From Desulfovibrionaceae bacterium (GTDB taxonomy: Bacteria; Desulfobacterota; Desulfovibrionia; Desulfovibrionales; Desulfovibrionaceae), in NCBI GenBank assembly GCA_029011315.1, contig JAQXLA010000008.1:1-64000 (forward strand): a stretch of 64,000 nucleotides of DNA, in the 5' to 3' direction. Positions 40,929-48,833 of the stretch are shown here, one piece after another. Both the position numbers and the translations under genes were made by a program. How positions within the stretch are numbered: the stretch's first letter is position 1; each line of letters begins with the position of its first letter. A model generated the notes under the pieces. It was not told the DNA's origin and ran no database searches. It worked only from the letters and a program-made list of their open reading frames with translations.

Positions 40929-42761
40929 CTATTCTTCGTCTTCAAGAATTTCAAGGCCGTCTTCTTCAAGGCTTTCAGCGCACTGAATAAGTTCCTTGAG
41001 CTGAAGATCTGCGCCGATAACGCCGACAGTATTGTCCTGATCGTCAGAAATAACTGTTGAGACGGTGATAATCAGCTTGTCGGTAAACAAAGACTGAACG
41101 ACTTTGGCAACATGCAGTTTGCCGGTTGCCATGGGCTGAAGGAACCATTCGCGCTTGGAGAAATCGTAGCCGACGGGCATTTTGTCAAACTGTTCCTGAT
41201 AAGCCGGATCGGTGACAACGGACGCAATGGATTTTCCCTTGGTGTCTGTGACGTACACATACTGAATGAACGGATATTCATGAACGAAATCTGTAAGCAG
41301 CTCGTTCATTTCTTCAAGATTCTTGCCCTGACATGCCAGCGCAAGACGTTCGACCAGATGACCGGCGCGGTCTCCCGCAAGTTTTTCCATCTTGTCGAAT
41401 TCGTTTTCAAACAGTTCGGGCATATAGCGTTTCACAAGAGCCGTCATTTCCTTGTTGGAGAAGGATGTATTGCGGCCTTCCTTTTCATAGGCTTTCATAA
41501 TCCTGTCGTAGATTTTTCCGACGGCAGGCGATTTCTTTGAAACCATGCGTTCCGGAGGGAGCTTAAGCTCCTGATTGATCCAGTATGCCACTCCGGCGCG
41601 TCCGGCTTTGTCGCTGATAATGATCGGAATGGATCGATTCAGCAGCTTCTGCGTATCGAAGATATTGTAGATTTCTTCGTTTTTGGCCAGTCCGTCGACG
41701 TGCACGCCGGCACTTGTAGCGTTGAAATCCTTGCCGACAAAAGGATAGTTGCTCGGAATATGATAATCGAGTTCCTTTTCAAAATATTCGGCAATTTCGG
41801 AAATGACTGTGGTATCGGCCGCATCATCATTGCCTGTCAGACTGATGTATTCGATAACCAGGGCTTCAAGCGGGCTGTTTCCTGTGCGTTCTCCGAATCC
41901 GAGCAAGGTTCCGTTGACGCCTCCGCATCCGTACAGCCATGCCGTAACGCCGTTGACCAGGACTTTATGAAAATCGTTGTGGCCGTGCCATTCCAGCCAG
42001 GATCCTGGTACGCCGGCTTCATCGGTAAAGCAGCGGACAATGCGCTGGACGGAACGGGGAAGTGCCGCGCCGGGGAACGGCACGCCGTATCCCATCGTAT
42101 CGCACAGACGGATTTTAACGGGCATCGAAGCCTGTTCGGCCAATTCCATAAGCTTGCGGGCGAAAGGCAGACAGAACCCGAAAATGTCCGCACGAGTAAT
42201 ATCTTCAAAGTGGCAACGGGGGATGATGCCCCATTCCAGTGCTTGCGAGACAACTTTGAGATAGTCATTCATCGCCTGTTCGCGATTTTTTCCAAGCTTC
42301 AGGAAAATATGGTAGTCTGACATGCTGGTCAGGACGCCGACTTCATCAAATTCCATGTCTCTGGCAATTTTGAGATCTTCAATTTTCGCGCGTACCCAGC
42401 CCGTTATGCGGGGGAATCTGTATCCTCTGGAACGGCAGACTTCAATGGCCTTGCGATCTTTTGAGGAATACATGAAAAATTCAGAGGCCTGAATCAGTCC
42501 GCTTTTGCCGCCGAGCTTGTGAAGCAGATCAAAGATTTTGGCAATTTGCTGTACGGTGTAAGGAGGGCGCGCCTGTTGTCCGTCTCGAAATGTTGTATCG
42601 GTAATAAACATGGGATTGGCTGGACGGGGAGCAAGAAGCACCTGATCAAATTCAACGCGGCTGATATTCGTATAGGGAAAAACATCTCTATATAATTCAG
42701 GTTCCGGGCGGTTGTCGAGTTTCAGAGGAATAGAAGAGTGCTTCTGAAAAATTAAGGACAT
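40929..42761 (-). CDS. Citrate (Re)-synthase/homocitrate synthase-like enzyme fused to a Cache-like domain
   Basis: A 610-residue two-part protein. The first part is an HMG-CoA-lyase-like TIM barrel that condenses an acyl-CoA with a 2-oxo acid. The metal-binding TDTTFRDGQQ starts at residue 54, HGHND lies near residue 270, and a LeuA-like second domain follows to about 470. It most resembles the Re-citrate synthases of Clostridium kluyveri and Desulfovibrio. The last 120-130 residues are unlike that family and read as a PDC/Cache sensor module: FIQYVYVTDTKGK, DFSKREWFLQP and GVIGADLQLKELI. There is no signal peptide or membrane segment, so this Cache-like part would be cytoplasmic. The ATG has an AAGGAG site nine bases upstream. 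2-isopropylmalate synthase is the main alternative. Confidence 0.75.
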   Translation of the reverse strand: MSLIFQKHSSIPLKLDNRPEPELYRDVFPYTNISRVEFDQVLLAPRPANPMFITDTTFRDGQQARPPYTVQQIAKIFDLLHKLGGKSGLIQASEFFMYSSKDRKAIEVCRSRGYRFPRITGWVRAKIEDLKIARDMEFDEVGVLTSMSDYHIFLKLGKNREQAMNDYLKVVSQALEWGIIPRCHFEDITRADIFGFCLPFARKLMELAEQASMPVKIRLCDTMGYGVPFPGAALPRSVQRIVRCFTDEAGVPGSWLEWHGHNDFHKVLVNGVTAWLYGCGGVNGTLLGFGERTGNSPLEALVIEYISLTGNDDAADTTVISEIAEYFEKELDYHIPSNYPFVGKDFNATSAGVHVDGLAKNEEIYNIFDTQKLLNRSIPIIISDKAGRAGVAYWINQELKLPPERMVSKKSPAVGKIYDRIMKAYEKEGRNTSFSNKEMTALVKRYMPELFENEFDKMEKLAGDRAGHLVERLALACQGKNLEEMNELLTDFVHEYPFIQYVYVTDTKGKSIASVVTDPAYQEQFDKMPVGYDFSKREWFLQPMATGKLHVAKVVQSLFTDKLIITVSTVISDDQDNTVGVIGADLQLKELIQCAESLEEDGLEILEDEE

Positions 42762-42879
42762 GCGTGGAGACTCCTTGGCCTGTTCAGAACAAAACAATGC
42801 ATTTTATTCGTAAGGACCTGTTTGCAGGGTATGACTCCGGAATTGATTATAAAAGTATCCGGAAATGGCGGGATGCTTC

Positions 42880-43044: not shown

Positions 43045-44244
43045 ATGGCTGATCGTCTGTTTTCTTTCCCGCAAATTCGTATCCGGGATGTCGTTTTGAG
43101 ATGGTTTGTTCCTGTTTTTGCGTTTTTTGTTCTTGCTCCTGTTTCAGGGCAGTGTGCTGATACTTTAAAAAATTCCGCTCAGCCTGCGGCCGCAGTCGCT
43201 GTTGGCATTATCAAGCCGATGAAAGTTCCGTATATCAGTGAATTTCCAGGACGGGTTGCGGCATTTGAGGTATCTGAAGTCAGGCCTCAGGTTGGCGGAA
43301 TTATTCAAAAACGGCTGTTTACGGAGGGATCGGACGTGCGTGTTGGCGATGTGCTGTATCAAATTGATCCGGCTTTATATCGCGCCGATTACGAAAGTGC
43401 CAAAGCGGCTCTGCGCCGTGCAGAGGCTAATGTGGCACCTGCACGACTCCGTTTTGAGCGGTATGGCAAGCTTCTTGCCAGCCGTGCTGTCAGTCGTCAG
43501 GAGTATGACGACGCCAAGGCTTCTTATGAACAGGCCAGAGCGGAAGTCGGGGTATGCCGTGCGGCGGTTGACAGTGCGAAAATCCGCCTGGAGTATACCA
43601 GGGTCACCTCTCCTATTTCCGGGCGCATTGGACGGTCTGCCGTAACGCCCGGAGCTTTGGTGACCGCAGGACAGGCATCGCCTTTAGCATCCGTATACCG
43701 CATTGATACCGTTTATGTCGATGTGACGCAATCCAGTGCAGACATGCTGCGTATGAAACGGGCTATGGAAAGCGGTCGGCTGAGCCGCATTGATGACGAG
43801 CATGCGGCTGTGCATCTGATTCTTGAAGATGGAACGATGTATCAGGAAACAGGATCCCTGCAGTTTTCAGAAGTTAATGTTGAGGAAAGTACAGGTTCTG
43901 TGACTTTGCGAGCCTTTTTCCCAAATACGGGGCGTTGTCTCTTGCCGGGAATGTATGTCCGAGCCAGATTGGCTGAGGCTGTTGATGACCAGGCTATTCT
44001 TCTGCCGCAGAAAGCGTTGCTGCGAGATGAAAAGGGAGCTGGCTATGCGTATGTTGTCAATGAATCCGGTATGGCTGAAAAAAGGATGGTTGAGGTCGGT
44101 AGAGCGTATGGCAGCACATGGATTGTTCAGTCAGGCCTCAGGGAAGGCGACAGAGTAGTCCTTGACGGATTTATTCGCGTGCGTCCCGGCATGGCAGTTC
44201 ATATCGTTGAGGAAAAGTTTATCGAACCTGTTCTGTCAGAATAG
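43045..44244 (+). CDS. RND efflux periplasmic adaptor (AcrA/MexA family)
   Basis: A 399-residue membrane fusion protein linking inner-membrane pump and outer-membrane channel. After a signal peptide (about residues 20-37) come a beta-barrel half, the biotinyl-lipoyl half starting PYISEFPGRVAAFEVSEVRPQVGGII, an alpha hairpin (about residues 100-165) and the second lipoyl/beta-barrel halves with YTRVTSPISGRIGRS. No lipobox cysteine sits at a suitable place (the only early Cys follows Gly-Gln), unlike lipidated AcrA/MexA. An AAAGG site precedes the ATG. First gene of a three-gene pump operon. Confidence 0.92.
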   Translation: MADRLFSFPQIRIRDVVLRWFVPVFAFFVLAPVSGQCADTLKNSAQPAAAVAVGIIKPMKVPYISEFPGRVAAFEVSEVRPQVGGIIQKRLFTEGSDVRVGDVLYQIDPALYRADYESAKAALRRAEANVAPARLRFERYGKLLASRAVSRQEYDDAKASYEQARAEVGVCRAAVDSAKIRLEYTRVTSPISGRIGRSAVTPGALVTAGQASPLASVYRIDTVYVDVTQSSADMLRMKRAMESGRLSRIDDEHAAVHLILEDGTMYQETGSLQFSEVNVEESTGSVTLRAFFPNTGRCLLPGMYVRARLAEAVDDQAILLPQKALLRDEKGAGYAYVVNESGMAEKRMVEVGRAYGSTWIVQSGLREGDRVVLDGFIRVRPGMAVHIVEEKFIEPVLSE

Positions 44245-44274
44245 ATACTGTGTTTTCCGGGGAGTTACAGCATC

Positions 44275-47200
44275 ATGGCCCGTTTTTTTATTGATCGTCC
44301 TATTTTCGCCTGGGTTATTGCCATTATTATTATGCTTGCGGGCAGCATTTCCGTCTTGAAGCTTCCTGTTGCGCAATTCCCCGATATTGCGCCGCCGACA
44401 ATTTCCATCACGACTCGTTATATTGGCGCATCGGCGCAAACGGCTCAGGATACTGTGACACAGGTGATTGAGCAGAATATGAACGGACTGGACTATCTGC
44501 AGTATATGTCTTCAAGCAGCAATTCAGACGGATCTATTGAAATTCTGCTCACCTTTGACAAGGCGGCGGATGCCAACATCGCACAGGTTCAGGTGCAGAA
44601 TAAGCTTCAGCTGGCTATGGCGCTCATGCCGGATGCCGTGCAGCGCCAGGGTATCACTGTGGAGAAGAAGGTAACCAACTATCTGGTGTCCTATTCGTTT
44701 TATAGTGAAGACGGATCGATGAACGCTTCAGACATCTCCGACTATGTTTCCTCGTATCTCATCGATTCTCTCCGGCGCGTTTCCGGAGTTGGTGAAGTGC
44801 AGCTGTGGGGATCTCAGTACGGTATGCGCATCTGGCTGAATCCACAGAAACTGCTCAGCTATAAACTGGTTCCAAGCGATGTGATCAACGCGATCAAGGC
44901 CTTTAATGCGCAGATTTCCGCAGGCCAGCTTGGCGCGTTGCCGCATTCGGCAGATCAGCAGATTAATATGAGCGTTGCGGTTCAGGAACGCCTCAGTACT
45001 CCGGATGAATTCGAAAGAATCGTTATTCGGACAAATGCGGACGGATCTCTTGTCAGAGTTCGGGATGTCGCGCGGGTTGAACTCGGACAGGAATTGTATT
45101 CTTCATACGGAAGATTTAACACGCGTCCTTCAGGCAATATCGGTATTAAGCTGACAACTGGTGCGAATGCCTTGGATACCAAGAAAAATGTTGAAAAATT
45201 TCTTGAAGAGAATTCCAGGTTCTTCCCGAAAGGGCTCAAGTATGCTGTCCCGTACGATACGACGCCGTTTGTAGAAATTTCCATACATGAAGTGTTTAAG
45301 ACATTGGTGGAAGCTATTGTTCTGGTTTTCATCGTCATGTTTATTTTTCTTCAGAATTTTCGCGCCACGCTCATCCCGACTATTGCTGTTCCGGTCGTGC
45401 TTCTTGGCACGTTTGCGGTTCTGGCCGCCTTTGGTTATTCCATCAATACTCTGACGATGTTCGGTGTCGTTTTGGCTATCGGTCTTCTGGTCGATGATGC
45501 CATCGTCGTTGTGGAAAACGTTGAACGGCTCATGGAAGAGGAAGATCTTTCTCCCCGAGAGGCAACACGCAAATCTATGGATCAGATTTCCGGAGCCCTG
45601 GTCGGTATCGCGATGGTATTGGCAGCAGTTTTTCTGCCGATGGCCTTTTTCGGAGGATCCGTTGGCGTTATCTACCGTCAGTTTTCCATTACGATTGTGG
45701 CATCCATGGCTTTGTCTGTGTTAGTTGCCCTGATTCTGACTCCTGCATTGTGTGCTTCAATGCTGAAGCCGCGATCCGCACAAAGCGCGCAGACTCAGCG
45801 CGGTTTTTGGGGCTGGTTCAACCGAAGCTTTGAGCGCATGACTTCAGGATATCTTGGCCTTGTGCGAAGCTGTATCCGGAGACCGGTGCGCATCATGCTG
45901 ATTTATGTGCTTCTTGTTGGCGGCATGGCCTTGTTATTCCGGATTATGCCTTCAGGATTTCTTCCCGATGAAGATCAGGGAATGTTTATGGTGCAGACTC
46001 AGCTGCCTCCCGGATCTACGATGGAAGATACTGAAGATATTATGAATAAAGTTGAAAAATATTGTCTTGAAGATGAAAAGGAAGCTGTCGATAAGATTTT
46101 GGTGATCCTTGGATCCAGTTTTGCAGGAACCGGACAGAACAGTGCGATGGCATTTGTCCGGCTGAAGGATTGGAAAGAACGGAACCGCGATGATTTGCGA
46201 GTCAGTGCTGTGACGCGCAGAATGATGAAGCGTTTTGGCGGTGAGCGCAATGCTTTGGTTTTTCCTTTTGCACCGCCTGCGATCATTGAATTGGGCATGT
46301 CTTCCGGCTTTGACTTTCAGCTTCAGGATCGAGGAGGTCTGGGCTATGACGCACTGTTGCAGGCCAGACGACAACTGATTGCCATGGCCTCCCAGAATCC
46401 AAAGCTGATGGGAGTTCGTTTTAACGGACAGGAAAACAGTCCTCAACTGAGGATTACGCTGGATCGGGAAAAAGTCGGAGCTCTTGGACTTTCGCTTGCT
46501 GATGTCAATGCGTTGCTGAATACGGCATGGGGCAGCAGCTATGTGGACGATTTTCTAGATAAGGGCAGAGTCAAAAAGGTCATGGTACAGGGGGATATCG
46601 AATTTCGCCGTCTGCCAGAGGATCTTAATCAGTGGTACTTCCGCAATTTCAAAGGAGCTATGGTGCCTTTTTCTTCCGTCGCGCATATATCGTGGGAACA
46701 GGCACCGCAGAGGCTGACCCGATATAACGGATTGCCTTCCATGGAGATTCTCGGTTCTCCTGCACCGGGATACAGTTCCGGTGAAGCTATGGCTGAAATG
46801 GAGCGTATGGCTGCTCAGCTGCCGGCTGGCATCGGTTTTGAATGGACAGGCATTTCCTTCCAGGAACGCGCTTCAGGTTCTCAGGCCCCCATGCTGTTTG
46901 CCCTTTCTATTATTGTCGTGTTCCTCTGTCTTGCCGCTCTGTATGAAAGCTGGTCAGTGCCCTTTGCCGTTGTGCTTGTAGTGCCATTGGGTGTGCTTGG
47001 TGCCATTTCATCCTCTTTTGTGCGCGGCTTTGCCAATGATATTTATCTTCAGGTTGGTTTGTTGGCAACCATAGGCCTTTCTGCGAAGAATGCGATTCTC
47101 ATTGTTGAGTTTGCCAAGGATTTACATGACAGAGGAAGAGATTTGCTGGAAGCGACGGCAGAAGCCGCGCGTATGCGCCTCCGTCCTATTTTGATGACTT

Positions 47201-47421
47201 CCATGGCGTTTCTGCTGGGCGTGCTTCCTTTGGCTGTCAGTACCGGAGCAGGATCCGGTGGACAGAATGCGATTGGAACGGCCGTTATGGGAGGCACGGC
47301 TTCTGCAACACTTCTTGGCATCTTCAGCATTCCTGTGTTCTTTGTCGTCGTGGTTTCTCTTTTTTCCATATTTAAGAAACATCATGACTCCGGATCCTCA
47401 AATCACAAGGAGCCACATTGA
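44275..47421 (+). CDS. RND multidrug efflux pump, HAE1 family (AcrB/MexB-like)
   Basis: A 1048-residue inner-membrane proton antiporter. The start [23 protein letters not shown] is typical. The proton-relay aspartates in TM4 are in [20 protein letters not shown], and the later [17 protein letters not shown] is the matching TM10 segment. Length equals that of AcrB/MexB, so it is a hydrophobic/amphiphilic exporter rather than a heavy-metal pump. It starts 30 bases after the adaptor with a GGGGAG site and overlaps the outer-membrane gene by four bases. Confidence 0.95.
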
Positions 47422-48833
47422 TGAAGGCAACATACTGTTTTCCGGCTGTTCTATGGATGTCTGTTGCTCTCGGAGGCTGTACGCTGGCTCCTCAATATTC
47501 CAGACCAGAGATGCCGGCAGAGACGGTTTCATGGGAGGAATCCTCGCTTTTATTATCCCCTGATGAAAGAAAAGCTGCAGTTTCAGTGGGATGGAGAGAA
47601 TTTTTTGCCAATACGCATCTTCAGAATCTCATTGAATTGGCACTGAAAAACAATCGCGATCTGAAAGTTTCGATTTTGAATATTGAGCGTGCCCGGGCTT
47701 TGTATCGCGTACAGGCTTCATCTTTGGCACCGAATGTGGATGCTATAGGTGAATCTTCACATAAAGGCGTGCCCGAGTCCGTCTCCACAACCGGCCAATC
47801 GTATATTTCTCGTCAGTATACGGCTTCTGTCGGGCTGAGCTATGAATTGGATTTCTTTGGCAGGCTTCAAAGTCTGAATGAACAGGCATTGGAAAAATAT
47901 CTGGCTACAGAGGAAGCCAGACGCAATGCGGAAATTGTCCTGATATCGGAGGTGGCTTCTGCCTGGATCCAGACTATAGCGCATCGAGACTCTTTGAATG
48001 TCTCAAGGAAAACTTTGGCAAGTCAGACGACATCCCATGATATGATTCAGAGGCGCTATGAAGAAGGCATTGCCTCGGAATTGGAACTCCTGGAATCTCA
48101 AAAAAACGTCGATACCGCGAAAGTCAAAGTTTCGGAATTTACCTCCTTGACGGAAACAGATATGACGGCGTTAACGTTGCTTCTTGGTACGAAGGCAACA
48201 CCGGAGATGATTCCTGAACAGTCTCTGGATGAGATTGCAGAATGGCCAGGCCTGAAGCCCGGAACCCCTTCTGAAGTGCTTCTTGTTCGACCGGATATTC
48301 TGGCTGCAGAGCATGAATTGAAGGCCGCTTATGCCAATATCGGAGCTGCGAGAGCCAATTTTTTTCCGAGAATCGTTTTAAGCAGTTCTATAGGGACTGC
48401 ATCGTCTGAACTGGATCAGCTGTTTGATGCCGGAACCCGTGCATGGACGTTCATGCCGCAGATTGTTCTGCCGATTTTCACTGGAGGAAGAAATTTGGCC
48501 AATCTCCATGTTGCTGAAAAGGACAGAGAAATTGCTTCCGTGCGCTACGAAAAAGCAATTCAGACTGCTTTCCGGGAAGTATCTGACACATTAGTGCTGG
48601 CCGGATCTTATGAGAGACAGCTGAGTGCTCAGCGTTCTCTTGTGCGAGCTGCTGAACGCAGCTATGCTTTGTCAAATGAACGTTATATGCAGGGAATTGA
48701 CAGCTATTTGGCGGCGCAGACATCGCAGCGCTTTTTATTTTCCGCGCAATTGAGCTATATTGCAACCAGAATGAATCGTGAAAAAAATATGATTGATCTG
48801 TACAGAGCCTTAGGAGGCGGGGTGAACGAGTAA
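47418..48833 (+). CDS. Outer-membrane efflux lipoprotein (OprM/NodT family)
   Basis: A 471-residue outer-membrane channel. A lipoprotein signal ends at the lipobox LGGC (cysteine near residue 20). Two outer membrane efflux repeats follow: the first opens with [21 protein letters not shown] and the second with [31 protein letters not shown], both signature segments of NodT-type factors. The ATGA overlap with the pump gene indicates coupled translation. With the two preceding genes it makes a complete tripartite pump. Confidence 0.94.

Follow-up and report, generated by a model that had tools for sequence, protein, structure and literature searches.

A Cache/PDC domain fused to a predicted Re-citrate synthase in Desulfovibrionaceae and further phyla

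Why would an enzyme of central metabolism end in a domain of the type that bacteria use in their receptors? Cache domains are usually extracellular, in chemoreceptors, and have been described as the largest extracytoplasmic sensor family of bacteria. In a stretch of 64,000 nucleotides from a Desulfovibrionaceae bacterium (hereafter the window), a previous sequence-only reading had pointed to a gene (Table 1) in which an enzyme similar to Re-citrate synthase would be joined to a Cache-like module, and all the motifs that it quoted (TDTTFRDGQQ, HGHND, FIQYVYVTDTKGK, DFSKREWFLQP and GVIGADLQL) are found in the open reading frame, which has a good ribosome-binding site. The gene lies about 2 kb from that of a sodium:dicarboxylate symporter family protein (PF00375; 37651-38910, minus strand) and is divergent from a likely tripartite RND efflux operon (43045-48833, plus strand) made up of a membrane-fusion-like protein, an AcrB-type pump and an outer-membrane factor.

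Table 1. Features of the fusion gene and its product (positions in the window)
Feature	Position	Strand	Remarks
Re-citrate synthase-Cache fusion protein (predicted), 610 aa	40929..42761	-	ATG at 42761, stop (included) at 40929
Shine-Dalgarno-like AAGGAG	42771..42776	-	9 bases 5' of the fusion-gene ATG; CTCCTT on the forward strand; read from sequence
HMGL-like TIM-barrel condensing-enzyme domain, residues 53-324	41790..42605	-	PF00682, E 2.6e-29; Foldseek top match 6ktq
TDTTFRDGQQ active-site strand, residues 54-63	42573..42602	-	F58, R59, D60, G61, Q62 and Q63 invariant (n=55 sequences)
EWHGHND metal-binding motif, residues 257-263	41973..41993	-	Invariant (n=55 sequences)
Post-barrel region resembling HCS_D2, residues 348-397	41571..41720	-	Weak: E 0.05; significant in 10/55 relatives
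Long helix, residues 454-476, linker between catalytic part and Cache domain	41334..41402	-	AlphaFold models
C-terminal single Cache/PDC domain, residues ~482-600	40962..41318	-	PF22673; AlphaFold models; PDB matches
Ligand-pocket stretch, residues 532-585 (Y532, R537, W539, F540, V555, S557, D585)	41007..41168	-	Alignment with the PctA amino-acid motif

Pfam and confident structural models agree on a condensing enzyme of the HMGL type with one true Cache/PDC domain behind it. The RDGQQ and HxHND motifs of the HMGL-type condensing superfamily are both present, and in a sequence search of the PDB residues 52-390 matched homocitrate, isopropylmalate and citramalate synthases, while residues 527-603 matched PctA, an amino-acid chemoreceptor (7.5e-9). 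A profile search of the C-terminal region, as the previous reading had proposed, gave PF22673 (MCP-like_PDC_1) at residues 486-592 (E 7e-10; 39.7 bits versus a cut-off of 27), together with a match of PF02743 (dCache_1) at residues 485-592 (E 2.8e-9) that covers only part of the profile and falls below its own cut-off. AlphaFold models reached a mean pLDDT of 90.5 for the full chain, whose best structural match by Foldseek is the homocitrate synthase 6ktq, and of 90.9 for residues 452-610 alone. This C-terminal model adopts the Cache fold, with a long N-terminal helix followed by an antiparallel sheet with a PAS-like core, and resembles the sensor domains of PctA, KinD, Tlp3, CtaA, WalK, CitA and DctB (Foldseek and VIA-align; Z ~14-16), matches that include amino-acid-, pyruvate- and citrate-binding Cache/PDC domains. 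Neither of the two outcomes that would have contradicted a true Cache fold was observed, as the model (pLDDT ~90) is confidently Cache and the region is no ordinary part of the synthase, Bacillota homologues ending at about residue 450. A single Cache module is present, and the chain finishes at residue 610. No export or membrane segment was found by hydropathy (maximum over 19 residues 1.33; N-terminus 0.40), in keeping with the cytoplasmic location first proposed; as the substrates are also cytosolic, the domain departs from the usual extracytoplasmic location of its superfamily. Other enzymes offer partial parallels. The isopropylmalate/citramalate synthases of the LeuA type belong to the same catalytic superfamily and also bear a C-terminal domain in the regulatory-domain position, but LeuA_dimer is unrelated to Cache and gave no Pfam match in the fusion protein at E values up to 10, as the sequence-only reading had anticipated for leucine-type enzymes. 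The YkuI-type EAL proteins (PF10388) likewise have a cytosolic C-terminal PAS/Cache-like domain behind an enzyme domain, but they are a c-di-GMP phosphodiesterase family whose domain is distant; of 55 fusion-family members, 2 match PF10388 itself weakly.

With regard to its distribution, the full-length fusion is present in most of the Desulfovibrionales relatives (32 of 59 genomes) and is by no means limited to this order. A survey of 84,980 species genomes gave at least 590 confirmed relatives, the best 80 of which spread the fusion over about ten phyla: Thermodesulfobacteriota, Nitrospirota, Spirochaetota, Elusimicrobiota, Omnitrophota, Lentisphaerota, Fibrobacterota, Margulisiibacteriota, Auribacterota and unplaced groups, many of them represented by metagenome-assembled genomes, so that individual placements could be mistaken, although the overall pattern depends on no one of them. 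A close relative of the fusion Cache occurs in 76 of 148 sampled genomes of the window's own phylum, nearly always in reading frames of ~600 aa, the length that the fusion would have. On the other hand, the homologues detected in 11 of 119 sampled Bacillota genomes end at ~450-470 residues and have no Cache, which suggests that the catalytic part can work alone. Condensing enzyme and Cache were both matched in each of the 55 family members scanned with Pfam (threshold for Cache/PDC matches, E 0.001), and the Cache region is under purifying selection, with dN/dS values of 0.01-0.15 in close pairs, far below 1; taken together, these two observations indicate that the fusion is not a product of chance. 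In the window's lineage, identity to a genus-mate is 54% for the Cache versus 86% for the enzyme, a rapid divergence of one domain and not of the other which may reflect a shift in ligand specificity, and which could also mean loosened constraint. In a tree of the catalytic part, with weak deep forks, long branches for L031 and L207, and L208 scored as Cache-bearing despite an unrelated tail, the Cache trait requires five changes, at least two of them forced, and a single origin by gain was not retained; this weakly supported tree suggests that the Cache was present early and was then lost in Bacillota. Two Desulfovibrionaceae with Si-citrate synthase (G012 and G017) keep divergent Re-citrate-synthase-like paralogues (L207 and L208) where no recognisable Cache was found, the C-terminal tail of L208 being unrelated.

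As for the reaction catalysed, Re-citrate synthase replaces the ordinary citrate synthase in many anaerobic bacteria, and the fusion is distributed in a complementary way to the latter. Among the 59 Desulfovibrionales genomes, Si-citrate synthase (PF00285) is missing in 31 of the 32 bearing the fusion and present in 19 of the 27 without it (Fisher p 2.6e-8, kinship uncorrected); 18 further genomes, reached through loci, show the same complementarity with two exceptions among the fusion carriers, and PF00285 was not found in the window's own genome. Moreover, the fusion gene is followed by an isocitrate dehydrogenase gene in 15 loci (from Desulfovibrio, Mailhella-related bacteria and other phyla) and, in 16 loci spread over several phyla, by one of the aconitase family, the neighbouring dehydrogenase scoring above the NCBIfam cut-off for NADP-isocitrate dehydrogenase (NF005425) in three of four cases tested. 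The genome of the window (1.49 Mb) encodes an isocitrate dehydrogenase (68% identical) and an aconitase-family protein on other contigs, unlinked to the fusion gene. This context bears out the original assignment of the N-terminal part as similar to Re-citrate synthase. The known enzyme (EC 2.3.3.3), mentioned for Clostridium kluyveri and Syntrophus aciditrophicus (PMC12016533), is also an HMGL-type protein that replaces Si-citrate synthase in anaerobes and has the same pathway neighbours, but the Bacillota relatives seen here stop at ~450 without a Cache; the Syntrophaceae loci (L066, L073-L075 and L080) carry the domain. The aconitase-family neighbours are of diverse kinds: a PRK11413-type hydratase (NF008503) in Desulfovibrio (L037:8198-10561), a split two-subunit LeuC/HacA-like enzyme in Syntrophorhabdaceae (L061:4464-6242) and a single-chain aconitase in Elusimicrobia (L088:8601-10607). 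In a genus-mate (G002; 1.7 Mb in 4 contigs), Re-citrate synthase, Si-citrate synthase and matches to the isocitrate dehydrogenase- and aconitase-family queries are all absent, an apparent loss of the whole branch.

The Cache domain itself has its nearest non-enzyme relatives in the C-terminal Cache domains of MCP-like proteins from Desulfobacterota (L143-L152, L183-L187 and L191), which the Cache HMM of the family recognises with E values of ~1e-26 to 1e-36, versus 1e-15 or weaker for periplasmic receptors. Some of these proteins have two N-terminal membrane helices and some are apparently soluble (L183, 435 aa), and the position of the Cache after the chemoreceptor signalling domain places it in the cytosol. 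They share with the fusion the cytosolic location and the same pocket pattern, but their Cache is attached to a chemoreceptor signalling domain and shows a GKDWSxRPWF variant of the pocket loop, with a lysine often found at the first motif position. In a tree of Cache sequences, a branch with 100/99 support splits the enzyme and cytosolic domains from 12 of 14 periplasmic ones, with two long-branch receptors falling inside the former group, and a single clade for the Cache of Re-citrate synthases and of cytosolic MCPs is not rejected (AU p 0.395). The C-terminal domains of the MCP-like proteins appear to be a distinct intracellular Cache clade, and the notion of a normally periplasmic module stands as far as its Cache identity is concerned, but not as a plain stray from the periplasm, since its nearest relatives belong to cytosolic chemoreceptor-like proteins. 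At one of these loci, the C-terminus of an EAL-domain protein (L145:2132-3448) is also Cache-like, though divergent; its open frame directly adjoins and overlaps that of an MCP-like protein ending in a Cache.

Regarding the ligand, alignment with PctA pairs Y532, R537, W539, F540, V555, S557 and D585 with Y121, R126, W128, Y129, Y144, D146 and D173, respectively. In sensors with the dCache_1AA motif, [YFWL]x4[RK]xW[YFW]x13-17[YFW]x27-34D, the carboxylate of the L-amino acid is held by the first aromatic residue, the arginine and the tryptophan, and the amino group by the second aromatic and the aspartate (PMC11237719). Over 98 members of the fusion family, weighted conservation amounts to 92% for R537, 97% for F540, ~94% for an aromatic at 555 and 100% for W539, S557 and D585, and among the 55 sequences W539, S557, L563 and D585 are invariant; positions aligned with PctA contacts carry 3.57 bits versus 2.38 for the rest of the Cache (permutation p 0.0003). 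The fusion Cache has the same fold as the dCache_1AA sensors (PctA, Tlp3, Mlp24 and CtaA), resembles their membrane-distal ligand-binding module and keeps every motif position except the first (that is, R, W, F/Y, aromatic and D) in 89 of the 98 members. It differs from them as a cytosolic, enzyme-attached domain of one module, not two, and in the first aromatic, which is absent from the family outside part of the Desulfovibrionaceae, the full motif being found in 15 of the 98, mostly from Desulfovibrionaceae, L037 (Desulfovibrio sp. ZJ369) among them. The window protein itself fails the full motif, with a valine at 555, the second aromatic position, where its genus-mates have a histidine. In a control set of 25 Cache receptors from the same order, mostly periplasmic (one row, L226, being a cytosolic MCP Cache and another, L140, misplaced), 15 carry the five residues, and the complete motif was seen in 13. 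Being common in periplasmic receptors too, the five-residue set is weak evidence for any particular ligand, and to call the domain a clean amino-acid sensor would be too strong, the more so with a family mostly devoid of the first aromatic. The motif speaks for a working pocket for carboxylate and amine, not strongly for one ligand. The missing first aromatic of most members and V555 of the window protein count against the sensor reading.

The most likely reading of these data, with a probability of roughly 60%, is that of a Re-citrate synthase whose cytosolic Cache would act as an allosteric sensor of a carboxylate-bearing metabolite. The metal-dependent condensing part would join acetyl-CoA and oxaloacetate, presumably with Re stereochemistry, and the citrate would feed aconitase and then NADP-isocitrate dehydrogenase to give 2-oxoglutarate and, from it, glutamate. 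The small carboxylate-bearing metabolite would be bound in the cytosol by the Cache pocket, R537 and W539 probably holding its carboxylate and D585, with the aromatic 555 in most relatives, its other end. Binding would then be passed through helices 454-495 to the catalytic part, altering its activity or assembly in the way known for the LeuA-type domains of sister enzymes, so that carbon flow into glutamate synthesis would be set up or down by an allosteric and probably end-product control. A glutamate-family amino acid, which as an end-product signal would suit both the pocket and the pathway, is the first guess for the ligand, and 2-oxoglutarate or another keto or dicarboxylic acid the second. 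A more ambitious proposal can be put forward only tentatively, at somewhat less than even odds: a separate intracellular Cache clade, common to an enzyme of central metabolism and to chemoreceptor-like proteins, may have turned an external amino-acid pocket inward, placing citrate synthase under end-product control by a glutamate-family amino acid in about ten phyla, with a specificity that would be shifting or being lost in the window's lineage.

Other explanations have to be weighed against allosteric control by such a metabolite. The Cache could sense an organic acid that has no amino group (2-oxoglutarate, pyruvate, oxaloacetate or citrate) and report carbon supply instead of an amino-acid end product, in line with the structural matches to pyruvate-bound KinD and citrate-bound CitA, the conserved R537, the replaced first aromatic, the invariant serine at the position of PctA D146 and the lysine of the cytosolic chemoreceptor domains, which might suit a second carboxylate. 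However, D585 and the aromatic at 555, equivalent to the residues that contact the amino group (PMC11237719), are kept in nearly all members, and the former is not obviously needed for an anion-only ligand; this alternative looks less likely, though a close rival. A purely structural or oligomerisation role for a Cache that has lost ligand binding would fit the Bacillota enzymes that manage without the domain, as well as its fast divergence and the loss of the aromatic 555 in the window's lineage, and for the window's own copy above all such a ligand-free role is possible. For the family as a whole it seems rather unlikely, as the Cache positions that line the pocket rank with its best conserved ones, W539, S557 and D585 are invariant across about ten phyla, and most pairs show strong selection on the domain. 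Much less probable is a catalytic part with homocitrate, isopropylmalate or citramalate synthase activity: homocitrate and isopropylmalate synthases are the top named matches in libraries and structures, but the scores of the fusion protein, 132 bits for NifV homocitrate synthase (TIGR02660, cut-off 462.9) and 88 for LeuA isopropylmalate synthase (TIGR00973, cut-off 598.7), are far under the curated cut-offs, separate isopropylmalate-synthase-type paralogues exist in the same genome, and both the isocitrate dehydrogenase and aconitase neighbours seen elsewhere and the complementarity with Si-citrate synthase point in a different direction. From distribution, neighbours and these low scores for rival families, a predicted Re-citrate synthase, almost certainly serving as the citrate synthase of its organism, is by far the best reading. 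Finally, an assembly or frame artefact, for which the draft status of the genome is the only argument, or a chance resemblance can be dismissed in view of more than 90 independent sequences with the same architecture, including single-contig chromosomes (G043, L086 and L081), and of purifying selection acting on each side of the fusion point.

A last point concerns what such a fusion may mean. Neither the catalytic family nor the superfamily of Cache domains is new, and any Pfam scan would show the two together; no treatment of the fusion was found in the open-access literature, a scope outside which key enzymology papers lie, so that an earlier mention may exist. In any case, a Cache domain of the sensor type is built into the enzyme predicted to open the oxidative branch of the TCA cycle across mostly anaerobic phyla. 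If it senses a metabolite, this would be an unstudied way of regulating, by allostery, how carbon enters glutamate synthesis, one that would concern sulfate reducers, syntrophs and gut Desulfovibrionaceae. Moreover, the fusion Cache would offer a ready single-domain system in which intracellular sensing by Cache domains may be addressed with the existing ligand screens for chemoreceptors.
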